A DNA stretch of 32,482 nt from Campylobacterales bacterium (lineage in GTDB: Bacteria > Campylobacterota > Campylobacteria > Campylobacterales > Sulfurimonadaceae): NCBI GenBank assembly GCA_024277445.1, contig JAJRVE010000225.1, positions 1 through 32,482 on the forward strand. Reading direction: 5' to 3'. The notes beneath the pieces were generated by a model. The model ran no database searches, had not been told where the DNA came from, and saw only the letters and a program-made list of their open reading frames with translations. Every line of letters starts with the position of its first letter. The first letter of the stretch is position 1. Of the stretch, positions 8,336 through 20,511 are shown piece after piece. A program made the translations under genes and the position numbers.

Positions 8336-9592
8336 TTAAATCCTAATCTCTTGAAAGCGTGGTCGTCTCTCAACGACCTCATCCATACAGGTTTGGGCTA
8401 AGGTCTCAAGATAACGGTACCCCTCATTTTGATCATCACTGCATAAGTTAAGCATATCTTCCAAAAGAGCCCCAAAAGCACGCACTTCGATCTTCTCATA
8501 TAAACTGTTCGCTTTGTCATAAAAACTCGCTGCACCAAAGTCTCCAAAATAGATGTGATGATCTTCTCTGTCTATTAAAATATTATGCGCATACAGATCG
8601 CCATGCATGAGACCTCGGTTATGAAGGTGCTCTGCTGCAGAGACCATAGCACGAGCAACACTGTAAATCGTCTCAAGGCTAAAACGTGTACATTTGGCAA
8701 AGGTATCACGGGTACAGGTCTCAAAGTTAGGGGCGAGTCCGAGGTTCTCATAATGTGAAGGAACCAGTTCTAAGACCAAGCCCAACTTTTCATCGCCTTC
8801 TATCCGAGCATGCACACTAATAAGATGCGGGTGTGCTCCTGTACTCATGTAAGCGTTCATCTCATCATGGGCATAACCATCACTCGTCACCGCGCCTTTA
8901 AAGAGCTTAACCGCCACCTCTTTTGCCGCTTCTTTGTCATGTGCCTTGTAGATCTCACCTGAAGCCCCCTCCCCTAACAGCTCACTCATCTCCAAACTCT
9001 CATACGCGACTTCAGGTAGTGCTGACTTAGGTGAAATGGAACATGGGTTTCCAGAAAAGGCGAGCCATGCCAACTTTGGCAAACGCAGTAACCACTCTGG
9101 TAGTACTTCAAACTGATTTGCTGAGAGACGAATCAATTCTAACTCTCGACAGTTAGCCATCTCTTCAGGCAAAGTAGTCAATTGATTACCCGCTAAGGGA
9201 AACTTACGCATCTTGGTTAGTTTGCCTATGGAATGCGGCAAGGCCTTAAGTCTGTTATCTGTCAGTATCAACCAGCTAATACCAAGAGGTAAAATATCTT
9301 CATCAAAGTGTTCTATCTGATTACCCTTCATGCCGAGCATATAAAGTTTTTCACACTGTTTAAAGGCATGAGGAAGATGATTAAAACGGTTAAAAGAGAA
9401 AAATGCGATCTTTAGGTTTTTAAGCACACTAAGGTCAGGTAGTTCAGTTAGTTTGTTATGACTAAGATCCAAGACTTCCAAGGTGTCTGCCAAGGTAAAA
9501 ATCTCTTGTGGAAAAGAGGTTAGACCTTCTGAGATCGTCAGTTGCGTGACTCCGAGTAGCTTTCCAGATCTGAGTTGTTCTAAAGTCTGCAT
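8336..9592 (-). CDS. Leucine-rich repeat and protein kinase fusion
   Basis: A 418-residue cytoplasmic protein without signal peptide or membrane segment. Residues about 15-185 are seven or so leucine-rich repeats of the LxxLPxxLxxLxxLxxLxLxxNxL type (LDLSHNKLTELP, LILTDNRLKALP, FPLAGNQLTTLP). Residues about 200-418 are a eukaryote-like kinase: Gly-loop LLGEGASGEIYKA (206-217), K229 in VAVK, a probable helix C glutamate at E244, catalytic HGDLYAHN (330-337) and D351 in GDFG. The activation segment is very short, with no APE motif before EVRAFG. Protein phosphorylation triggered by LRR binding is inferred. It converges on holA with six bases between stops. No partner gene is obvious. Confidence 0.85.
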   Translation of the reverse strand: MQTLEQLRSGKLLGVTQLTISEGLTSFPQEIFTLADTLEVLDLSHNKLTELPDLSVLKNLKIAFFSFNRFNHLPHAFKQCEKLYMLGMKGNQIEHFDEDILPLGISWLILTDNRLKALPHSIGKLTKMRKFPLAGNQLTTLPEEMANCRELELIRLSANQFEVLPEWLLRLPKLAWLAFSGNPCSISPKSALPEVAYESLEMSELLGEGASGEIYKAHDKEAAKEVAVKLFKGAVTSDGYAHDEMNAYMSTGAHPHLISVHARIEGDEKLGLVLELVPSHYENLGLAPNFETCTRDTFAKCTRFSLETIYSVARAMVSAAEHLHNRGLMHGDLYAHNILIDREDHHIYFGDFGAASFYDKANSLYEKIEVRAFGALLEDMLNLCSDDQNEGYRYLETLAQTCMDEVVERRPRFQEIRI

Positions 9593-9670: not shown

Positions 9671-11515
9671 ATGATCCAATTTTCCAACGTCTCCAAATCT
9701 TACGGCAGCCAAGAACTCTTCAACAACCTCACCTTTAAACTCAACCCCGGTAACAAAATGGGGCTAGTCGGTCGTAACGGTAGTGGTAAGTCCACCATGT
9801 TTAAACTCATTTTGGGGGAAGAAGAACCTAGTGATGGGCAAGTCATCATCCCTAAGAATTATAAAATAGGTGCATTACGCCAGCACCTGGTTTTTACTGA
9901 GAAAACACTCCGTGAAGAGGCAGCACTTGCCCTCGAAGATGATATGAAGTGGGACACCTACCGTGTTGAAAAGATCTTGTTTGGTCTTGGTTTCAACTTA
10001 GCCGACCTCGACAAGAGTCCACTTGACTTTTCGGGTGGATACCAGATCCGTATTAACCTTGCTAAGCTTTTGGTCACTGAGCCTAACCTACTCCTACTCG
10101 ATGAGCCTACCAACTACTTGGACATCCTCTCACTGCGTTGGTTAAAAAGTTTTTTACGTGCCTTCCAAGGTGAAGTGGTTCTCGTAACTCACGACCGTGA
10201 TTTTATGGATGGCATCTGTACGCATACTATGGGTATCATCAGACGTGACCTGTTTATGATCCCCGGTGACACCCACAAATTTTACAGCCAACTCAAAGAG
10301 AACGAAGAGCTTTATGCCAAGCAAAAAGTCTCTCAAGACAAAAAAGTCAAAGAGCTTGAAGAGTTCATCGCTAAAAACAAGGCACGTGCTTCTACTGCTG
10401 CCTTAGCACAGTCTAAAGTTAAGCAGTTAGAGAAGATGGACCGCATGGAAGACATTGGTTTTGATAACACCTTAAAGTTTGACTTCCAGTTTAAAGACAC
10501 CGTGGCTAAAGTGCTTCTTGATGTTAAAGACATTAGCTTTGGGTACACACCAGACAACATTCTCTTTAAAAACATCTCTTTTACCATTGAGAAAGGTCAC
10601 TGTCTTGCCATCATCGGTAAAAATGGTGTGGGTAAGTCTACCCTACTCAACAACCTTGCTAAAGAGTTAACACCTTTAAGTGGCGAGGTAAAGTACCACG
10701 GAACTACTGCCATCGGTCACTTTGGACAGACTAACATCTCACGTCTTGATCCTAAGAGCAACATCATGGACGAAATCTACGCAGCTAACCCTAAACTCTC
10801 TGCCGCAAGTGTAAGAAGTATCTGTGGTGCGATGATGTTTAGTGGAGACAGTGCTGAAAAGAAGGTCTCTCTTCTCTCGGGTGGTGAAAAAAGTCGTGTT
10901 ATGTTGGGACAGATCCTCTCTCGTCCTTCAAACCTTCTCTTCCTTGATGAGCCTACTCACCACCTTGACATCGACTCTATTGAGGCCTTAACGGTTGCGA
11001 TCAAAAACTTCCAAGGCTCTTCGATTATCGTTTCTCACTCTGAAGAGCTCCTACGACGTGTTGCTGACAGACTCATCATCTTCTCTAAAGATGGTGCTGA
11101 ACTCTTTGATGGCGGTTACGATATGTTCTTGGAGAAAAAAGGGTGGGATGAAGATGATGTTGAAGAGACAGCGCCTAAAAAGAAAAAGACCTCTAACCCG
11201 ATGAGTAAAGAGAACAAAAAACTTAAAAACGTCATCACAAAAGAGCGTTCACGTGCCACTTCACCGCTTCGTAAAGAGGTAGAAAAAGCAGAGAAGTTCA
11301 TTATGGAAGGTGAACGTCAGATCAAACTATACCATCAAGAGTTAGTAGAAGCTTCAAGCACTAATGACAATGCTAAGGTCATGGAAGTTTCCAAGCTAGT
11401 TAGTGACTTAGAAGCAGAAGTCGAAGCGAAGTTTGAGCGCATGGAAGTGGCGCAAGAAGAGCTAGATGCACTCATGGCTGAGTATGAAGTCAAGCTAAAG
11501 GCCTTAGAGGGATAA
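9671..11515 (+). CDS. ABC-F family ATPase, Uup/YheS-like
   Basis: ABC-F proteins are soluble twin-ATPase factors that act on the ribosome E site or in related quality control. The 614-residue protein has two ABC domains: Walker A GRNGSGKST (34-42) and GKNGVGKST (316-324), signatures FSGGYQIR (120-127) and LSGGEKSR (402-409), and Walker B DEPTNYLD (144-151) and DEPTHHLD. They are joined by a charged linker (about 205-275). A lysine-rich stretch and C-terminal coiled coil (about 500-614) resemble Uup and YheS. There are no membrane segments. It stands alone between divergent and convergent neighbours. The exact subgroup cannot be set by eye. Confidence 0.88.
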   Translation: MIQFSNVSKSYGSQELFNNLTFKLNPGNKMGLVGRNGSGKSTMFKLILGEEEPSDGQVIIPKNYKIGALRQHLVFTEKTLREEAALALEDDMKWDTYRVEKILFGLGFNLADLDKSPLDFSGGYQIRINLAKLLVTEPNLLLLDEPTNYLDILSLRWLKSFLRAFQGEVVLVTHDRDFMDGICTHTMGIIRRDLFMIPGDTHKFYSQLKENEELYAKQKVSQDKKVKELEEFIAKNKARASTAALAQSKVKQLEKMDRMEDIGFDNTLKFDFQFKDTVAKVLLDVKDISFGYTPDNILFKNISFTIEKGHCLAIIGKNGVGKSTLLNNLAKELTPLSGEVKYHGTTAIGHFGQTNISRLDPKSNIMDEIYAANPKLSAASVRSICGAMMFSGDSAEKKVSLLSGGEKSRVMLGQILSRPSNLLFLDEPTHHLDIDSIEALTVAIKNFQGSSIIVSHSEELLRRVADRLIIFSKDGAELFDGGYDMFLEKKGWDEDDVEETAPKKKKTSNPMSKENKKLKNVITKERSRATSPLRKEVEKAEKFIMEGERQIKLYHQELVEASSTNDNAKVMEVSKLVSDLEAEVEAKFERMEVAQEELDALMAEYEVKLKALEG

Positions 11516-11535
11516 CCTTCTACCTGACGCAACAC

Positions 11536-12165
11536 TTATGCGTCTATGATATTTCGCATCCAGTCCGAAATATATGCGAGCTCTTCTCTCGCGAGACTAT
11601 GATCTTTTTCATAGCTTTTAAACTCTATCTCAAACCCACCTTCTTGAAGTGTCTCAACTTGTTCTTTAGAGGTTTCAAAAGGTAAGACGTTGTCAAAGGT
11701 TCCATGGGTACAGAGCCAGTTGGATTCGCGTAAGTCTGGGTTCATCTCAGCAAGTAAGTGCTCAGCATCGTAAATATAACCACTGATAGCAATGTAGCCT
11801 GCCAGTTCTCTATGGTAGCGCGCACCAAACTCAAAGGTAAGCAGTGAACCCTGTGAAAAGCCAAACAAGAAGCTCTCCTCTGCGTTAAACTCCTCTTCAA
11901 AGAGCATATCAAGTGTCTCTGTTAAGAGCTGACTTGAGTGTTTGATACCAGGAAGTTGTTCGGGAGGGAGCTGATACCACGAGAGACCCGTAAAAAACTC
12001 AAAGGGTGCGTCAAGTAGCAGGTAGTTCATCTCATCAATATCGATAAAATCAGGCAACATCGTAAAGCCTTCAGACGAGTCACCACGACCATGCATAATG
12101 ATCATCACCTTTTTAGAAGGAACTTTAGCGGGTATAAATATATTATCTAGGGGTAAGTTTTGCAT
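11536..12165 (-). CDS. Phospholipase/carboxylesterase-family serine hydrolase
   Basis: A 209-residue alpha/beta hydrolase, likely cytoplasmic, probably cleaving ester bonds. The catalytic triad is visible: S104 in GFSQG, D158 in THGTFDNVLP and H189 in EKDHS, with the oxyanion-side motif HGRGDS at 25-30. Size and motifs match the carboxylesterase/YpfH group; the substrate is unknown. The only plausible start is the ATG at 12165, which sits five bases after a TATAAT box and has no Shine-Dalgarno, so the mRNA may be leaderless. It converges with the ABC-F gene. Confidence 0.85.
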   Translation of the reverse strand: MQNLPLDNIFIPAKVPSKKVMIIMHGRGDSSEGFTMLPDFIDIDEMNYLLLDAPFEFFTGLSWYQLPPEQLPGIKHSSQLLTETLDMLFEEEFNAEESFLFGFSQGSLLTFEFGARYHRELAGYIAISGYIYDAEHLLAEMNPDLRESNWLCTHGTFDNVLPFETSKEQVETLQEGGFEIEFKSYEKDHSLAREELAYISDWMRNIIDA

Positions 12166-12170
12166 GCGAC

Positions 12171-12199
12171 ATTATATAGAATTTGTATTTACCTTCAAA
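12171..12199 (-). promoter_or_regulatory. Promoter of the hydrolase gene, probably leaderless
   Basis: On the minus strand TTGAAG (near 12198-12193) is followed 16 bases later by TATAAT (12176-12171), then GTCGC and the ATG. Transcription starting 6-7 bases past the -10 would begin at or next to the A of the start codon. Confidence 0.5.
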
Positions 12200-12247
12200 C
12201 ATTTTTTGTACAACAAAGAAATCTCTTTTCGTTTCTAAACAATTCGC

Positions 12248-12276
12248 TATAATCTTTCTAATTATCCTGAAAGATT
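12248..12276 (+). promoter_or_regulatory. -10 box and overlapping operator of the zeta-like module
   Basis: TATAAT at 12248-12253 overlaps a perfect 8-bp inverted repeat, AATCTTTC (12251-12258) and GAAAGATT (12269-12276), with a 10-base spacer. The repeat covers the expected transcription start. This is a typical operator position for an autoregulated toxin-antitoxin unit, although it could also be a 5' mRNA hairpin. Confidence 0.45.
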
Positions 12277-12378
12277 AAACATGAGCATATGTGAAGTATG
12301 TTCTATCTCAAGATCTTAATATGCTCCATAAGCGGTATGGTTTGAGAGATGGTGAAATAACGGTTGTGAAGGAAAAAA

Positions 12379-12942
12379 ATGAAAAAGCTCTATATCATAG
12401 CCGGAGCAAATGGGAGTGGCAAAACAACCTTTGCCAAATCTTTTGCCAAAGTTCACAACTTACACTTTATCAATGCCGATGAAATTGCAAAAGAACTTGA
12501 TCCTCACAACATTACAAAGCATCAAGTAAAAGCAGGTCGTATTTTTTTTCAAGAGCTTAGTCAACGACTTAAACAAGAGCACTCCTTTGTCATTGAAACA
12601 ACCCTTTCAGGTAAGTACCTTGTAAAGTACATCACACTTGCGCATACCAATGGCTTTGAGGTAGAGATGATCTATCTTTTCTTAGAGAGACCGGAGACAA
12701 ACATTGGACGGGTTGCTATACGGGTCATCGGTGGTGGACACCATGTTCCTAAAGATGATATAATAAGGCGATTTTACCGAAGTAAAACGATGTTTTTCGA
12801 GGTCTATAAAGATCTTGTAGATCATTGGGAAGTCTATTATAACTCTAATGAGATTTTTGAAAAAGTTGCAGACACAGATGCTGTCTATGACCATGAAAAG
12901 ATGCAAGAGTTCAGGAGCATAGAAAATGACGAAATCAGATAA
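12379..12942 (+). CDS. Zeta-toxin-like P-loop kinase
   Basis: A 187-residue P-loop kinase of the zeta toxin/UDP-GlcNAc-kinase-like family. Motifs are Walker A GANGSGKT (9-16), NADEIAKELDP with D34, IETTLSG (72-78), and the family loop RVIGGGHHVPKDDIIRRFYRS (115-135) with R130/R131. Epsilon-zeta toxins phosphorylate UDP-GlcNAc; chromosomal relatives in Gram-negatives are often uncharacterised, so toxicity is inferred. The start is the ATG at 12379, after AAGGAAAAAA. It overlaps the following small gene by 17 bases, and no epsilon-type antitoxin precedes it. Confidence 0.85.
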   Translation: MKKLYIIAGANGSGKTTFAKSFAKVHNLHFINADEIAKELDPHNITKHQVKAGRIFFQELSQRLKQEHSFVIETTLSGKYLVKYITLAHTNGFEVEMIYLFLERPETNIGRVAIRVIGGGHHVPKDDIIRRFYRSKTMFFEVYKDLVDHWEVYYNSNEIFEKVADTDAVYDHEKMQEFRSIENDEIR

Positions 12943-13150
12943 TATCAACATATCAGACACCATCCAGCAGATAGGAAATGATGCCGTAAGACTTGCGCAG
13001 AAAAAGAACCTAGAGAATGGCATACCCAATGTCTATAGTAAAAATGGTGTCCTTTACTTTCAGCTCCCCGATGGAACCATAACCATGGAAAACCCTCTTG
13101 AAAAAGGCGTCTATAAGGCACAACTAGATGCTCTAACTCCCGCGTCTTAG
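12926..13150 (+). CDS. Small partner of the zeta-like kinase, candidate antitoxin
   Basis: A 74-residue protein whose gene overlaps the kinase gene by 17 bases. It has an N-terminal helix (NISDTIQQIGNDAVRLAQKK) and a C-terminal beta-hairpin section (VYSKNGVLYFQLPDGTITMENPL). Small proteins with the pattern KNxxLYxxxPDGTI commonly follow such kinases in Gram-negative genomes, as far as I recall. An antitoxin or accessory role is inferred from this arrangement; there is no DNA-binding motif to prove it. Confidence 0.7.
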   Translation: MTKSDNINISDTIQQIGNDAVRLAQKKNLENGIPNVYSKNGVLYFQLPDGTITMENPLEKGVYKAQLDALTPAS

Positions 13151-13172
13151 AATCTCTCTTAAATATTCTAAG
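13146..13172 (+). terminator. Inverted repeat at the end of the zeta-like module
   Basis: CTTAGAAT (13146-13153) and ATTCTAAG (13165-13172) pair perfectly with an 11-base loop and include the TAG stop of the small partner gene. The stem is AT-rich and no T-run follows, so terminator function is uncertain. Confidence 0.3.
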
Positions 13173-13218
13173 AACCCACACCCAACTACATTAACCACAC
13201 ACTTCAAGGAACACCAAT

Positions 13219-13899
13219 ATGTCAGAATCAACCGAACCGACAACAGAAAAAATCTACTACGACCCTATCAGTATTGCTCAACGCACTAAGCAAAAGCTAC
13301 ACGTTGTTGCTGAGTATGACAAAGCAGCTATGTTAGCGCATATCATCAAAAGTAGTGAGGAGGTACATGCTGTTGTCATTACTAAGACAAAACGTTTAGC
13401 TGACACCTTGAGTACCTACCTCAACAAACACGGCATCAATGCCACTTCCGTTCATGGCAACAAACGCACACATGAAAACGAAGCTGCTGCTAAAGCCTTT
13501 GATGATGGAGAGCTTAGTGTTCTCATCACAACAGACATGATTTTGCAGACACTTGGACTTGCCAACATTACACACCTCATCAGTCATGATCTGCCTACCC
13601 AACCAGAGCACTACCTTAACCGTGTTGCTTCTCTAAACGAACGTGGAGAAGCGATTGTTTTACTTGGTGAGGAACAAGAGGTAGCACTTTTAGACATCGA
13701 GCGCGTGATGCGTCATGAGATCCCTGAAGAGCCGGTAGAAGGGTTTACGCCAACACCTGAGGCTGAGATCAATACAACACCGCAACCCACTGAAGATAAA
13801 AAGAAAAAGCCTCGTCACCGCAAGCAGAAACGAAAGACTACTAACAAGCAGACAGAACAAGAGAGTGAACAGCCAGCAAGTGACACGGAAGATAAGTAG
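13219..13899 (+). CDS. RecA2-only DEAD-box helicase-like protein with degenerate motifs
   Basis: A 226-residue protein matching only the C-terminal (RecA2) half of DEAD-box RNA helicases. Visible are the motif IV-like VVITKTKRLADTL (52-64), VHGN (78-81), motif V as VLITTDMILQTLGL (101-114, instead of VLVATDxAARGxD) and motif VI as YLNRVASLNERGEA (132-145, instead of YxHRxGRxGRxG). There is no RecA1 domain, so no Walker A or DEAD box, and the arginine finger is mostly lost. The tail (190-226) is strongly basic, then acidic. RNA binding without ATPase activity is inferred. AAGGAACACCAAT precedes the ATG. The exonuclease gene follows after three bases. Confidence 0.75.
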   Translation: MSESTEPTTEKIYYDPISIAQRTKQKLHVVAEYDKAAMLAHIIKSSEEVHAVVITKTKRLADTLSTYLNKHGINATSVHGNKRTHENEAAAKAFDDGELSVLITTDMILQTLGLANITHLISHDLPTQPEHYLNRVASLNERGEAIVLLGEEQEVALLDIERVMRHEIPEEPVEGFTPTPEAEINTTPQPTEDKKKKPRHRKQKRKTTNKQTEQESEQPASDTEDK

Positions 13900-13902
13900 C
13901 CG

Positions 13903-14427
13903 ATGATTGTTTTAGACTTCGAGACCAACTCTTCACATGTTCATGATGTTATTGAAGTTGCAGCGTTTAGAGTGAAAAAAGAAAATGGGAGCTATGTCGT
14001 TACCGACACCTTTCATCGTTACTACCTATCAGACTACGAGGTTAACCCTCACGCTTTAGCCGTACACAAGTTATCTCCTGAGCGTATAGAAAGGCTTAGA
14101 GCAGGTGCTGATTATGCTGAGTACTTTGAAGAGGATGAAGCATTTGTGGCTTTTTGTCAGGGTGCCACTACCTTAGTAGCCCACAACATCTCGTTTGAAC
14201 TTCGTCATTTAGGAGAATTAGTCTCCTTTGAAAAGCATCTCTGCACCATGAAAGAGAACAAAAAACATGTTCAAGCCCGTAATGCAAAAGGGAACATCAA
14301 AAACCCGAAGCTCATCGAGACCTGTCTCTTTTACAATATAGAATTTGATGATGAGCAGTACCATAGTGCGCTCTATGATGTCACTAAGACCTTAGAAATC
14401 CTGAACCACATGCACATTAATAGTTAG
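13903..14427 (+). CDS. DEDDh-family 3'-5' exonuclease
   Basis: A 174-residue DnaQ-like exonuclease, single domain, likely acting on DNA or RNA 3' ends. Exo I is VLDFETNS with D5 and E7, Exo II is VAHNISFEL with N95 and the usual Asp replaced by E99, and Exo III is H154 and D159 in YHSALYD. The Asp-to-Glu change in Exo II is unusual but may keep metal binding. Its start lies three bases after the stop of the RecA2-only protein, so the two are one operon, suggesting that the basic-tailed protein guides the nuclease to its substrate. That link is inference. It converges with the DUF808 gene. Confidence 0.82.
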   Translation: MIVLDFETNSSHVHDVIEVAAFRVKKENGSYVVTDTFHRYYLSDYEVNPHALAVHKLSPERIERLRAGADYAEYFEEDEAFVAFCQGATTLVAHNISFELRHLGELVSFEKHLCTMKENKKHVQARNAKGNIKNPKLIETCLFYNIEFDDEQYHSALYDVTKTLEILNHMHINS

Positions 14428-14440
14428 CGCACTTTACAAG

Positions 14441-15310
14441 TTATTTTACTAAAAGTGATCTCATTTTCAGAGTACCTTTGACTGAAACAACAACCACTAC
14501 TCCTATCACAAAGCCTACTAACAGTTCCGTCACAATAACAGGAAGAAAATGTAATACATCATGGATCTGGTGGATGTTATGCACATAGATGCCACCTGCT
14601 ACCAACAACATCGCTAAGGTTCCCACAACCGTTAAGAGCCTGATGACCTTTGGTAGTGCCGCCACCAGAGCTTCACCCGCTTTTTGCAGTAGTGAGTTCT
14701 CACCGTCTGCCATCCGTATAAGCGCAAAACCCGCATCATCCATGCGCACCAAGAGTGCCACCACCCCATACACACCTACCGTCGCTAACAAGGCGATAGC
14801 CGAAACAACAATGATCTGTACACCAATGCCTTTATCTACCACCGTACCAAGTGCAATGATGATGATTTCTATGGACAAGATGAAGTCTGTTCGTATCGCT
14901 GAGAGTATCTTCTTCTCTTCTTTCTCTTGCAGGTCTCCTTCATCATGAGTATCATCATTTTTGTGTGTCTCATCATGAGGAACAAAGTACTCAAAAATCT
15001 TCTCTGCTCCCTCATAGGCCAAGTAGAGCCCACCTAACATCAAGATAGGTACGATGACCCAAGATGCATAAGCACTCAGTACAAAAGCTATGGGCAAGAT
15101 GATCAACTTGTTGAGCAGAGAGCCCTTGGTAATCGCCCATAAAACAGGTAACTCTCTTGAGGCTGCAAAGCCTGAAGCTTTTTCAGCACCTACCGCTAAG
15201 TCATCACCTAAGACACCTGCTGTCTTTTTCGCAGCAACCTTACTCATCATTGCGGCATCATCAAGAAGCATTGCAATGTCATCTAAGACCATAAATATAC
15301 CAGCTGCCAT
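14441..15310 (-). CDS. DUF808/YedI-family inner membrane protein
   Basis: A 289-residue polytopic inner membrane protein matching the YedI (DUF808) family. The N-terminal signature FMVLDDIAMLLDDAAMMSKVA and the KKTAGVLGDDLAV segment are characteristic, followed by hydrophobic segments around residues 65-95, 140-190 and 215-280. A histidine/aspartate-rich loop (HDETHKNDDTHDEGD, about 112-126) may bind metal. The biochemical function of the family is not established. AAGGAGTCGT sits well before the ATG. It stands alone, convergent with the exonuclease gene. Confidence 0.85.
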   Translation of the reverse strand: MAAGIFMVLDDIAMLLDDAAMMSKVAAKKTAGVLGDDLAVGAEKASGFAASRELPVLWAITKGSLLNKLIILPIAFVLSAYASWVIVPILMLGGLYLAYEGAEKIFEYFVPHDETHKNDDTHDEGDLQEKEEKKILSAIRTDFILSIEIIIIALGTVVDKGIGVQIIVVSAIALLATVGVYGVVALLVRMDDAGFALIRMADGENSLLQKAGEALVAALPKVIRLLTVVGTLAMLLVAGGIYVHNIHQIHDVLHFLPVIVTELLVGFVIGVVVVVSVKGTLKMRSLLVK

Positions 15311-15537
15311 ACGACTCCTTGGTGAGATTATTTCTTTAGCTATTTTATCGGTTTTTGGTAATAATCAAAACAGACGAAAAGAGTTTTATTTACAAAATAT
15401 TTACCAATATTTTTTACAATTTCAGCAGGGTAACACAAGGTGCAATGACCATTGAGTGATGCCATCATCTCCTCATTGGTTCTAAAGTACCACAGAGTGA
15501 TAAAAATGCTTTCGTATGATCGCATTTTTCTACCCTG

Positions 15538-15558
15538 TATATTAATATATCGAAGGAG
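15538..15558 (+). promoter_or_regulatory. -10 box and ribosome site of the alpha-crystallin-like gene
   Basis: TATATT (15538-15543) is followed by GAAGGAG (15552-15558), five bases before the ATG at 15564. The leader would be short. The rest of the 15311-15537 gap is AT-rich with no gene that I can support. Confidence 0.4.
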
Positions 15559-15563
15559 CTACT

Positions 15564-16034
15564 ATGTTTAAAACACTTTCTTTATTAACAACATTAACAG
15601 TAACATCACTACTTGCTTCAACAACTATCATCCCCAACCTCAACCAAGAGCTTGCCCACAACAAGGTCTTGATTAAAGAGTATAAGCAAGCCGTTACAGA
15701 GTTAGAAAAGCGTAATGACTTTCTGATTGCAGAGAAGAAGAAAAACCCAAAACTCTACGAGGTAAAGCCACTCTTTGAAGAGAGTAAAAAAGCCTATATC
15801 CATCGTGTTAAACTCAATGGAGCAGAAGCGAAAAACCTTAACTTTACCGTTAAAGATCATCGTGTAACACTTGAGATGCAGATGAAAACAGAACGAAAAG
15901 ATAAAAATGGATACTACTCAAGTTCTCAATACTTTTTTCAGGCCTATCCCATCCCTGAGGATGTCAATGAAGAGAAGATCAAACACAGTGTAGATGGTGA
16001 CTACTTTGTCATCACAATGCCGAAAAAGAAGTAA
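15564..16034 (+). CDS. Secreted alpha-crystallin-like (Hsp20-type) protein
   Basis: A 156-residue protein with a signal peptide (MFKTLSLLTTLTVTSLLAS) and a charged helical segment (about 25-70). A beta-rich domain (about 76-154) resembles the alpha-crystallin domain: YIHRVKLNG, NLNFTVKDHRVTLEM, a central loop, AYPIPEDVNEEKIKHSVDGDY and FVITMPKKK. The last part matches the Hsp20 pattern (VdxxkIkaxxxdGvLxIxxPK). Most Hsp20 proteins are cytoplasmic, so an exported form suggests a periplasmic chaperone or stress role. The match is by pattern only. It converges with the broken rlmF. Confidence 0.65.
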   Translation: MFKTLSLLTTLTVTSLLASTTIIPNLNQELAHNKVLIKEYKQAVTELEKRNDFLIAEKKKNPKLYEVKPLFEESKKAYIHRVKLNGAEAKNLNFTVKDHRVTLEMQMKTERKDKNGYYSSSQYFFQAYPIPEDVNEEKIKHSVDGDYFVITMPKKK

Positions 16035-16038
16035 GACC

Positions 16039-16986
16039 TTAAGAGAAACGTCTCTTTTTCCATGCGTGTTGTTGGTCGGCTGACAAAAAGGTCCAGACCA
16101 CGATGCGTGTCACCTTTTGACCTTGTTGCATCTCTATTGTCTCGATGCGTACAGGGTTGACTTCCTTTAACGCCTTATAGATAGCAGCTAAACTCTCTTT
16201 TTTAGAGACAAGTGTAGAGAACCAAAAGACTTTTTTTCCATGAACCGCACTCTCTTTTATCATCTTCTTCACAAAAGCGACTTCACCACCTGGACACCAC
16301 AACTCATTGGCTCTACCACCAAAGTTAAGTGCCCCTTTTTTGGACTTACCTTGATGTAAGTTACGGTTTTTACGTGCCGTTCCATATAGAGCCTCTTCAG
16401 CCGAGCGGTGAAAAGGTGGATTACTAAGTGTAAAGTCAAAACACTCATTTTTACCAATGATACCACTAAAGATATGTTCACTATTTGACTGCTCTCTTAT
16501 CTCTATCTTCGCTTTTAACTATGGGTTTTTAGAGACGATCGCATTAGCAGAGGTGATCGCTTTAGCATCGACTTCTGAGCCGACAAAAGACCAACCGTAC
16601 ACACTACACCCAACTATAGGATAGATGCTATTGGCGCCAACACCAACATCTAAGCCGCGTACTTTCTCCCCTTTAGGGATCTCGCCACCATTCGCTTCTG
16701 CTAAGAGGTCAGCCATATAATGTAAGTAATCTACCCGACCCGGTATGGGTGGACAGAGATAGCCTTTTGGGATCTGCCAAAAAGTGATGTCATAAAAATG
16801 TGTCAGAAGCGCTCTGTTAAGCATCAAAACTGCTTCAGGATCAGAAAAGGTAATAGAGAGGTCGCCATAGCTGTTCTCTTGAACAAAAGGAGCAAGCCGA
16901 GGTTCACTCTTAATCAAGGCTGGAAAATCGTATGATCCATTATGTAGGCTACGTTGGTGAAATCTTTTGGTCTGTTCTTTGGGCAT
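16039..16986 (-). pseudogene. rlmF: 23S rRNA m6A1618 methyltransferase RlmF, interrupted by an amber codon
   Basis: The reading frame encodes the full RlmF (YbiN) protein, which N6-methylates A1618 of 23S rRNA. The N-terminal part has [31 protein letters not shown] and the SAM motif [13 protein letters not shown]. After an in-frame TAG at 16521-16519 (codon 156, after ISKNP) the same frame continues with LKAKIEIREQ, the catalytic-type LSNPPFHRS, ALNFGGRANELWCPGGE and the normal C-terminus. There is no frameshift. The truncated product would lack the NPPF motif and be inactive, unless the codon is read through or is a consensus error. The start is the ATG at 16986 rather than TTG at 16992. Confidence 0.88.
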
Positions 16987-17117
16987 TGTCAATCTCTATA
17001 AAATTATGGTGTAAATATTTGAAACATATTATTAAAAAATATTATCTTTAAGTGCTAAAGTATGTAACTGACGGTTTATAAGTGTATTATTCCATAAATA
17101 TTTTAAAGAGGTACCTT

Positions 17118-17876
17118 TTGTTTAAATCTGTTTTCCTACTCTTATCACTTATAACCTATCTATTTGCACAAGATTGTAGCACACTCTACCCTGAAGGTTT
17201 CCCTACACAGAGAGTTGACAAAGTACTCTGTAAAAAAAGCTTTGTACTCGGGTACTCGTTTGAGACTAAAACACCCCTTTGGGCAGTAGAACATCTTACA
17301 AAAGAGAACACAGCGACCAAAGAGATTGCACTCGAAGGTTTTCGCTATCACAGAGACTACGCCCTAGCACGAAAATATCGTGCAACCTCAAGTGACTACA
17401 GCTACAGTACCCAAGACAGAAGCCCACTTGTTCCCTTTGAAGACATGAACAAAGATCATTTTGCTTCACATGAGACCTTTGTCATGTCAAACATCGCCCC
17501 TCAAGACTACGCCCTAAACCGTCACGGTTGGGTCTACTTAGAACGTGGTGTACGCGAGCTTGCCAATGCTTATGAAGAGGTTATTGTCGTCACTGGTGTC
17601 GCTTTTTTACATGAGACCAATACTAAAGTCGAGCGTATCGGTCGCCATAAAGTGGCAGTTCCAACACACTACTATAAAGCGGTTTACGCACCCAACACCA
17701 TAGATGGTCCTAAGATGTGGGCATGGATCGTACCAAACAGAGCGGTTGACTATAAAAAGATGAAAGAGTACAGAACTACCGTTGACACGCTTGAGGCGAA
17801 ACTCGGGATCGACCTCTTTCCAAACCTAAGCACTGCTCTGCAAGAACGCGTTGAAAGCAAAACGATACCGCTGTAA
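17118..17876 (+). CDS. Secreted DNA/RNA non-specific endonuclease-fold protein, catalytic motif altered
   Basis: A protein of about 252 residues with a signal peptide (FKSVFLLLSLITYLFA) and the NucA/endonuclease G fold. The recognisable core is DRSPLVPFEDM followed by SHETFVMSNIAPQDYALNRHGWVYLE (100-142), with metal-ligand N134. The family motif DRGH reads D100-R101-S102-P103 here, so the general-base His is missing. H114 or H118 could substitute, or the protein may be inactive. A longer frame begins with GTG at 17082, but AAAGAGG at 17105-17111 precedes the TTG at 17118, which I prefer. It diverges from rlmF. Confidence 0.8.
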   Translation: MFKSVFLLLSLITYLFAQDCSTLYPEGFPTQRVDKVLCKKSFVLGYSFETKTPLWAVEHLTKENTATKEIALEGFRYHRDYALARKYRATSSDYSYSTQDRSPLVPFEDMNKDHFASHETFVMSNIAPQDYALNRHGWVYLERGVRELANAYEEVIVVTGVAFLHETNTKVERIGRHKVAVPTHYYKAVYAPNTIDGPKMWAWIVPNRAVDYKKMKEYRTTVDTLEAKLGIDLFPNLSTALQERVESKTIPL

Positions 17877-17889
17877 AACGTTTTTGTAA

Positions 17890-17902
17890 GAAGCATCTGC
17901 TT
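17890..17902 (+). terminator. Short hairpin after the nuclease gene
   Basis: GAAGCATCTGCTT forms a small AAGCA/TGCTT stem with a two-base loop, 13 bases past the stop codon. T-rich tracts lie before and after it. The same 13 bases occur behind rpsR (22061-22073). Confidence 0.3.
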
Positions 17903-17955
17903 TCACATTATTTCCACACTTTTTTACTTTAAACTACCATCAAGGAAGAGAAGCA

Positions 17956-17991
17956 AGACCAAGATTCACTCCACTTGGTCTATAATACCCT
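17956..17991 (+). promoter_or_regulatory. hrpB promoter with embedded inverted repeat, probably leaderless
   Basis: TATAAT (17981-17986) ends five bases before the hrpB ATG, with no room for a Shine-Dalgarno, so the mRNA is probably leaderless. A perfect 8-bp inverted repeat, AGACCAAG (17956-17963) and CTTGGTCT (17974-17981) with a 10-base spacer, occupies the -35 to -10 interval and touches the -10 box. This position suits a repressor or a MerR-like activator. Confidence 0.5.
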
Positions 17992-20511
17992 ATGCAAAAC
18001 TTACCAATCCATGATGTTTTACCAAAGATCCTCTCGCAACTAGAGGTAGCAAACCGTCTTATCTTACAAGCACCACCAGGTGCAGGTAAGACAACGGCTG
18101 TTCCCACTGCCCTTTTAAATGAACCGTGGCTGGCTGAAAAGAAGATCATTATGTTGGAACCTCGTCGTCTGGCCACGCGCAGTGCCGCAGCGAGAATGGC
18201 AGAACTGTTAGGCGAACAAGTGGGTAAACGCATAGGCTACCAGATAAAGTCTGATCGCTGTGTGAGTAAGGAGAGTAAGATCATTGTAGTAACCGAGGGC
18301 ATCTTGACCCGGATGTTACAGAGTGACCCTGCTTTAGAAGATGTCGCCTTGATTATCTTCGATGAATTCCATGAACGTAACCTTCATGGTGATCTTGCCC
18401 TTGCACTCACGCTTCAGTCGCAAGAGCTTCTACGTGATGACCTAAAGATCATGGTGATGTCTGCTACCTTAAACACTTCAGCACTCTATGAACTGTTAGA
18501 ACAACCTCCACTTATCACCTCAGAAGGAAAAAGCTACACCGTTGAAAACATCTATCTTGATAACAAGATAGCAGCACCAAAGCTCCATGAAGTGACAAGT
18601 TTAGTAAGTAAAACCATTATACATGCCCTACGCGTAGACGATGGTAGTATTCTCGTCTTTTTACCAGGTGTCAAAGAGATCAAAAATGTGCAAGAGAGAC
18701 TACATAAAAGTCTTAACGATAAGAGTATCATCATCGCACCTCTGTATGGCATGATGAGTAAACAAGCACAAGATGAAGCCATTTTACCTACAAAAGATGG
18801 TACACGAAAGGTCGTTCTTGCCACCAATATAGCCGAAACAAGCCTTACCATTCAAGGTATCAAAGTCGTCGTCGATGCTGGACTACAACGCGTCTCAACC
18901 TTTAACAGTGGCTCTGGTATGAACACACTTAAGACCATCTTCATCTCCCAAGATGCGGCTACGCAACGAAGTGGTCGTGCAGGTAGACTTAGTCATGGAC
19001 GATGTTATCGACTCTGGCACCAACACAAACCCCTTATCAAGCATGCCCTACCTGAGATCTTAACAAGTGACCTGACACCCATATTTTTAGAGTTGGCTAA
19101 CTGGGGTGTAGAGAACATCCATGAGCTACAATGGCTAGACATACCAAACGAGTGTGCTATCAAACATGCACAAGAGCTTTTAGAACAGTTAGGTGCCTTA
19201 AAAATGAAGCAGATAACCCCACATGGTCAGCAGATGCTAAGTCTAGGAACGCACCCTCGACTTGCCCATATGATCATCACTTCCCTGTCCTGTGGTCTCA
19301 GTAAAGAGGCGAGCACCTTGGCTGCCTTACTCACCGAAAAAGAGCTTTTTAGAGGCGAAGCACGACGCAACATAGACCTAAACCAACGCCTTGTTGCTGT
19401 TCAAGAGAACCACAATGGTATTGATGTCGATACTGCAGCACTCCGGCAGATAAAAGAGAGTATAAAAAGTTTTGAAAAAAAACTTCCAAGCGTCTCTCTC
19501 TCACAGCAGATACAACATAACAGTGTTGGAGTGCTATTGGCCCTTGCTTATCCTGATCGTATCGCCAAAATACGTCACCGAAATAGTCATAACTACCTGC
19601 TCTCAGGTGGTAAAGGAGCTCAACTCTCTCAAGATGATACTCTTTTTGGTGAGCCATACCTTGTTGTGGCGGACCTGGACAGTGCACAAAGTAACGCACA
19701 TATCTATAAGGCTGTAGCACTTGACGAAGCTACCATTTATACCCATCTCTCAAAGCAGATCATAGAAGAAAAAGTCGTGAGTTGGAACACTGCCCTTGAG
19801 CGTGTAGAAGCAAGGCAGATCCATAGACTTGGTGCTATTGTCTTAGAAGAGAAATCGACTAAAGAGATCTCTCGAGAGGATATTGCGAAGGCCTTGATGC
19901 TTGCCCTAAAAGAGAGGGGTCTCTCAGCACTAACATGGTCAAAAGAGGCAAGAAGTCTACAAGAGCGTGTTAACTTTTTGAACTATTGGAAAGGTCAAGA
20001 GATCAACACAGCTCAGTTTAAAGCCTTACCTAACTTCAGCGAAGATGCCTTATTAGAGCACCTTGATCAATGGCTCTTACCCCATTTAGATGGTGTCTCG
20101 ACCTTTAAAGCACTTCAAAAACTAAACGTACAGACCCTTCTCTTATCGATGTTGACATGGGAACAACAAGAGATGATTAATTTGCTTGCTCCGGCACGGT
20201 TAAAGGTACCAAGTGGCTCCAACATCTATCTTAACTATGCCAACAAAGTTACGCCAACCTTAGCTGTCAGACTCCAAGAACTTTTTGGCATGACAGAGAC
20301 CCCAAAACTCATCAACAACCAAGTCACCCTCACCATCGAACTACTCTCACCTGCCAACCGTCCCATGCAGGTCACAAAAGATCTTAAAAGTTTTTGGGAC
20401 AACACCTATGACGAGGTCAAAAAAGAGCTACGAGGAAAGTATAAAAAGCACTATTGGCCCGATGATCCTTACCAAGCCATCGCCACAAGTAAAACAAAAA
20501 AGCGTATGTAA
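17992..20511 (+). CDS. hrpB: ATP-dependent helicase HrpB
   Basis: A DEAH/DEFH-type superfamily 2 helicase of 839 residues, close to the usual HrpB length. Motifs in order: Walker A APPGAGKT (27-34), Ia LEPRRLATRSAA, DEFHER (124-129), MSATL (156-160), the NIAETSLTIQGI motif V region and QRSGRAGR motif VI, then the HrpB-specific C-terminal half with LLSGGKGAQL, ending in a basic segment where the typical YxKHYWPDDP signature (KKHYWPDDP) is visible. Its RNA or DNA substrate is not well defined, but it is widespread in proteobacteria. The gene appears to stand alone under its own promoter. Confidence 0.93.
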   Translation: MQNLPIHDVLPKILSQLEVANRLILQAPPGAGKTTAVPTALLNEPWLAEKKIIMLEPRRLATRSAAARMAELLGEQVGKRIGYQIKSDRCVSKESKIIVVTEGILTRMLQSDPALEDVALIIFDEFHERNLHGDLALALTLQSQELLRDDLKIMVMSATLNTSALYELLEQPPLITSEGKSYTVENIYLDNKIAAPKLHEVTSLVSKTIIHALRVDDGSILVFLPGVKEIKNVQERLHKSLNDKSIIIAPLYGMMSKQAQDEAILPTKDGTRKVVLATNIAETSLTIQGIKVVVDAGLQRVSTFNSGSGMNTLKTIFISQDAATQRSGRAGRLSHGRCYRLWHQHKPLIKHALPEILTSDLTPIFLELANWGVENIHELQWLDIPNECAIKHAQELLEQLGALKMKQITPHGQQMLSLGTHPRLAHMIITSLSCGLSKEASTLAALLTEKELFRGEARRNIDLNQRLVAVQENHNGIDVDTAALRQIKESIKSFEKKLPSVSLSQQIQHNSVGVLLALAYPDRIAKIRHRNSHNYLLSGGKGAQLSQDDTLFGEPYLVVADLDSAQSNAHIYKAVALDEATIYTHLSKQIIEEKVVSWNTALERVEARQIHRLGAIVLEEKSTKEISREDIAKALMLALKERGLSALTWSKEARSLQERVNFLNYWKGQEINTAQFKALPNFSEDALLEHLDQWLLPHLDGVSTFKALQKLNVQTLLLSMLTWEQQEMINLLAPARLKVPSGSNIYLNYANKVTPTLAVRLQELFGMTETPKLINNQVTLTIELLSPANRPMQVTKDLKSFWDNTYDEVKKELRGKYKKHYWPDDPYQAIATSKTKKRM

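Follow-up and report, generated by a model that had tools for sequence, protein, structure and literature searches.

A putative RhlE-derived pseudohelicase family built on the RecA2 domain alone in Sulfurimonadaceae-type Campylobacterota

The window, by which we mean the whole stretch of 32,482 nucleotides analyzed here, comprises positions 1 to 32,482 of contig JAJRVE010000225.1 (assembly GCA_024277445.1) from a Campylobacterales bacterium of the Sulfurimonadaceae. It contains two consecutive genes on the forward strand, (i) gene A (13219–13899; 226 residues, ATG start), characterized through its open reading frame, Pfam and NCBIfam matches, orthologues, AlphaFold model, PDB matches and tree position, and (ii) gene B (13903–14427; 174 residues, ATG start), characterized through its Pfam match and orthologues. 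The two genes are separated by 3 bp, and the coordinates given in the initial annotation proved exact. Upstream of A lies a gene for a Zeta-toxin/AAA_33-type kinase (12379–12942; PF06414, 8.5e-9), overlapped by a 74-residue open reading frame (12926–13150) with no significant family match; the two are possibly a toxin-antitoxin-like or kinase pair. Further upstream, the translation of 8336–9592, as read by eye, appears to consist of leucine-rich repeats with a protein-kinase-like domain after them.

The only Pfam match of protein A above cut-off is Helicase_C (PF00271, 2.4e-13, residues 35–136), with Utp25_C as a weak match below it (E 0.0088). In NCBIfam, the highest-ranking matches correspond to the C-terminal half of RhlE models (1.5e-29 and 2.1e-29). 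The AlphaFold prediction, built on 26 sequences, displays a confident RecA2 fold across residues 11–180 (13249–13758; block means of ~87–97) followed by a disordered tail. In the PDB, this model best resembles second domains from DEAD-box helicases (entries 2hjv and 5gi4, Hera and SrmB; the proteins represented include YxiN, DeaD and SrmB), the Foldseek comparison with 2hjv_A giving an E value of 5.2e-12 and a TM score of 0.89 by target. Both the profile and the predicted fold identify A as a homologue of the DEAD-box RecA2 domain. The RecA1 domain, with its Q motif, Walker A and DEAD box, is missing, and a search of the window with a RecA1 query returned no remnant (best E 1.1), in agreement with the RecA2-only description given initially.

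Within the RecA2 core, alignment counts reveal that the signature motifs have degenerated. The segment TTDMILQTLGL (residues 104–114; 13528–13560) replaces the ATDxxxRGxD of motif V, and YLNRVASLNERG (residues 132–143; 13612–13647) replaces the HRxGRxGR of motif VI, so that A has neither the domain composition nor the canonical motifs of a functional DEAD-box helicase. The ATPase activity of DEAD-box proteins needs RecA1, the motif IVa arginine and motifs V and VI; since A lacks all of these, ATP hydrolysis is very unlikely. The tail of the window's protein contains KKKKPRHRKQKRK and includes a conserved basic motif, DKKKKPRHRKQKRK (residues 193–206; 13795–13836), predicted to be disordered from its low pLDDT. 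The basic tail described at the outset is therefore real, though the protein as a whole is not basic (pI 5.7). The core is acidic, with 17 lysine and arginine against 25 aspartate and glutamate residues, and the predicted RNA binding thus depends on the tail alone.

A stand-alone orthologue of A occurs in 65 of the 228 genomes of the host family (Sulfurimonadaceae-type Campylobacterota), a count that includes one genome in which A is cut by a contig end (G003) and one in which it is broken (G013). Two genomes, G139 and G156, carry two copies each, which brings the total of complete proteins likewise to 65, encoded by 63 genomes; their lengths span 190–248 residues. In both of these Sulfurimonas genomes the two A-type genes lie within ~6 kb of each other, and the copies fall into different subclades. 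The named records with A are Sulfurimonas and metagenome-assembled genomes of the Sulfurimonadaceae/Helicobacteraceae. When 397 genomes of the class were searched with a profile, a clean gap separated A-type open reading frames (E <=1.4e-76) from full-length helicases (E >=2.3e-41), and two further A-positive genomes emerged, both in another family, f20.

Twelve residues (K11, D15, R22, Q25, D34, K35, K58, T105, Y132, K197, R199 and H200) are invariant in all 65 complete proteins, none of which displays a canonical motif V, motif VI or motif IVa QxxR; the degeneration of motifs V and VI noted at first sight in one protein thus extends to the whole set. By contrast, all 37 full-length helicases retrieved for this group keep motif VI, and most of them also match the motif V pattern. 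The tail K-x-R-H is present in 65/65 complete A proteins and the longer KKPRH in 56 of them. These features recur in the orthologues of 64 further genomes within the family and are not due to chance.

In a tree that combines the 65 domains of A with the RecA2 domains of 37 full-length helicases, A occupies one side of a single branch with a support of 100/100. Close full-length homologues, by which the initial annotation would have recognized a simple truncation, were not found: no full-length protein exceeds ~36% identity to A, and the full-length proteins belong to a separate clade. The dN/dS ratio of A, calculated for eight close pairs, is 0.11–0.22, indicating that the gene is maintained. 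The presence in 65 genomes, the single clade and the purifying selection together rule out a local truncation or pseudogene. On a broader scale, A might be regarded as a decaying gene fragment without function, given that a whole domain and the catalytic motifs have been lost, that the G013 copy is broken and that presence across the family is patchy; nevertheless, the low dN/dS, the invariant residues in 65 proteins of similar length with the same tail and the deep single clade leave this reading with a minimal probability, and for the family overall the selection data refute it. Most genomes of the family lack A, and the G013 copy is broken, so that the gene is dispensable.

A thus keeps the fold, has lost the motifs and, as judged solely from dN/dS, is maintained, the combination expected of a pseudohelicase such as Utp25. 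On these sequence grounds, the A proteins appear to be bacterial pseudohelicases comprising RecA2 alone, in an ancient family with a single origin. Other readings were considered and rejected. PADLOC returned only generic matches (helicase, DEDDh), and a defence system was set aside on this basis. A phage source was likewise discarded, relatives of A being absent from viral contigs in a pattern scan and relatives of B from phage records.

Comparison with RhlE-type DEAD-box helicases (NF007882, NF053710) highlights a shared RecA2 fold, a 'GF' linker after the domain and a lysine-rich tail, whereas A lacks RecA1, the DEAD box, the motif IVa arginine and canonical motifs V and VI, and displays a fixed KKPRHRK-type motif. 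The profile ranking and the linker point to an RhlE parentage, although the tree assigns A no specific sister group among the 37 full-length helicases. By analogy, A comes closest to Utp25 of the eukaryotic SSU-processome, a DEAD-box protein that is catalytically dead yet required for ribosome assembly and has been called the first fully validated pseudohelicase (PMC9539457). Both Utp25 and A preserve the DEAD-box fold with vestigial helicase motifs, but Utp25 comprises both RecA-like domains and is essential, whereas A is bacterial, dispensable and reduced to RecA2. No stand-alone bacterial RecA2 protein was found in the open-access literature, and A represents a new bacterial variant among pseudohelicases.

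Protein B matches the RNase_T/DEDDh family (PF00929, 4.4e-11) and solved RNase T structures (8.4e-6). Its DEDDh residues in the window are D5, E7, E99, H154 and D159; D5, E7, H154 and D159, shared with RNase T and DnaQ-type exonucleases, are present in all 61 distinct orthologues, while the Exo II aspartate of those enzymes is replaced by glutamate, again in 61/61. The unusual E99 that had been recognized from the sequence of one single-domain exonuclease is therefore real. Distant homologues at 30–34% identity, from Cetobacterium and Campylobacter plasmids, display aspartate at this position, and E99 is a fixed, derived Asp-to-Glu change of the B family, independent of the presence of A. No characterized relative of B closer than the RNase T and DnaQ-type DEDDh exonucleases was found. 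B occurs in 53/228 genomes of the host family (one weak match left out) and in a second large family, f9, where the class search returned no A-type match; by its sequence, B is a putative DEDDh 3'-5' exonuclease family in its own right.

The initial annotation had proposed that A and B form a dedicated degradation unit, in which A would clamp RNA without catalysis and thereby recruit B or stimulate its exonuclease activity. The tight arrangement of the two genes is in keeping with this proposal: A and B are adjacent in five genomes of the window's genus (G000, G002, G003, G004 and G007), with a spacing of 3–6 bp, and in one Sulfurimonas genome (G225), where A is an intact open reading frame of 202 residues that overlaps B by 4 bp and both proteins group with the Sulfurimonas copies. 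A known pair offers a parallel as well, since MrfA/MrfB from Bacillus subtilis likewise combines a helicase-derived protein with a DEDDh exonuclease (PMC11194089), but MrfA is an active helicase, MrfB contains a TPR domain and an aspartate in Exo II, and the A/B linkage is not conserved. Among the 27 genomes with both genes, A and B are adjacent in six and unlinked in 21, well short of the conserved linkage of a two-gene helicase–nuclease unit. Elsewhere, A lies at a contig end in G005, and in G014 an esterase gene stands directly 3' of A in place of B.

Each gene also occurs on its own, A without B in 38 of the 65 A-positive genomes, and B without A in many genomes of genus g14 (which includes Sulfuricurvum), where A was seen in none, and in much of family f9. 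Moreover, the upstream neighbour of B varies by lineage, often with the same 4-bp overlap, as with an ABC-F ATPase, so that close spacing is characteristic of B and no indication of A. The check on genome co-occurrence gave a divided answer. In Sulfurimonas, A is found in 15/19 B-positive genomes against 32/116 others, a Fisher test that ignores kinship and genome completeness giving p=3e-5, and this excess may reflect a looser A–B link in that genus, whereas conservation of the linkage failed at 6/27. The adjacency is a local arrangement in a few of these bacteria and there is no fixed operon, although A and B are probably co-transcribed in the window's genus. A functional unit of A and B is accordingly very unlikely, and the dedicated unit as first proposed is not supported by genome context. 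It is likewise highly doubtful that A would act as an ATP-independent RNA clamp delivering B to structured or ribosomal RNA, in trans where the genes are unlinked. In several genera, genes for an ABC-F ATPase, a carboxylesterase, A, B, a DUF808 protein and HrpB are repeatedly found close together (9671–20511 in the window), a pattern that points to an ancestral locus since dispersed.

For the A family itself, we lean with moderate confidence towards an ancient RhlE-derived pseudohelicase that serves RNA metabolism, perhaps at the ribosome, as a small adaptor binding RNA or protein without ATP. A gene for a DEAD-box helicase of the RhlE type would have been duplicated, and one copy would have lost (i) the entire RecA1 domain, with the ATP site and the DEAD box, and (ii) the residues in RecA2 motifs IVa, V and VI through which ATP and RNA are contacted. 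That copy would have kept the 'GF' linker typical of RhlE along with its RecA2 fold, and its tail now carries the fixed KKPRHRK-type motif. The remaining fold lends itself to protein contacts, and the conserved basic tail to RNA. The tail would bind RNA, most plausibly rRNA or ribosomal particles, and the RecA2 face would engage a partner, either an active RhlE-family helicase or another protein of RNA metabolism. We infer, then, a protein devoid of ATPase activity that binds RNA in a ribosomal or RNA-metabolism setting.

The genomic surroundings are suggestive only. The immediate same-strand neighbours of A include an RlmI-like rRNA methyltransferase, Uup, EF-P, a Tex-like S1-domain protein, YcaO (an S12-methylthiotransferase accessory factor), HrpB, ThiI and a full-length helicase; RNA and translation families account for ~9 of the ~37 families adjacent to A, B included, by our own count made without a control, and the neighbourhoods vary widely. 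In Helicobacter pylori, an Epsilonproteobacterium, RNase J and a DEAD-box protein form a degradosome (PMC5874925), and by analogy a complex of this kind is a possible setting for A.

Alternatively, A could damp the activity of full-length RhlE-type helicases in a dominant-negative-like manner, by occupying their partner-binding surfaces or substrates. In bacterial DEAD-box proteins, both the surface of RecA2 and the C-terminal tail do bind regulators, RraA contacting the RecA2 domain of SrmB and the tail of RhlB (PMC3814787); A members occur in genomes with full-length helicases, and in G017 A sits 30 bp 3' of a full-length helicase gene. This helicase, the sole tandem case, is nevertheless just 26% identical to A, and we regard such a regulatory role as unlikely. 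The same identity, together with the placement of this helicase in another clade, rules out a recent tandem origin of A from the adjacent gene.

Catalytically dead helicases are seldom documented. If A is the pseudohelicase adaptor that we favour, a compact family comprising RecA2 alone, with a fixed tail and under selection, would offer a simple system in which to study the roles that a helicase lobe may perform without ATP.
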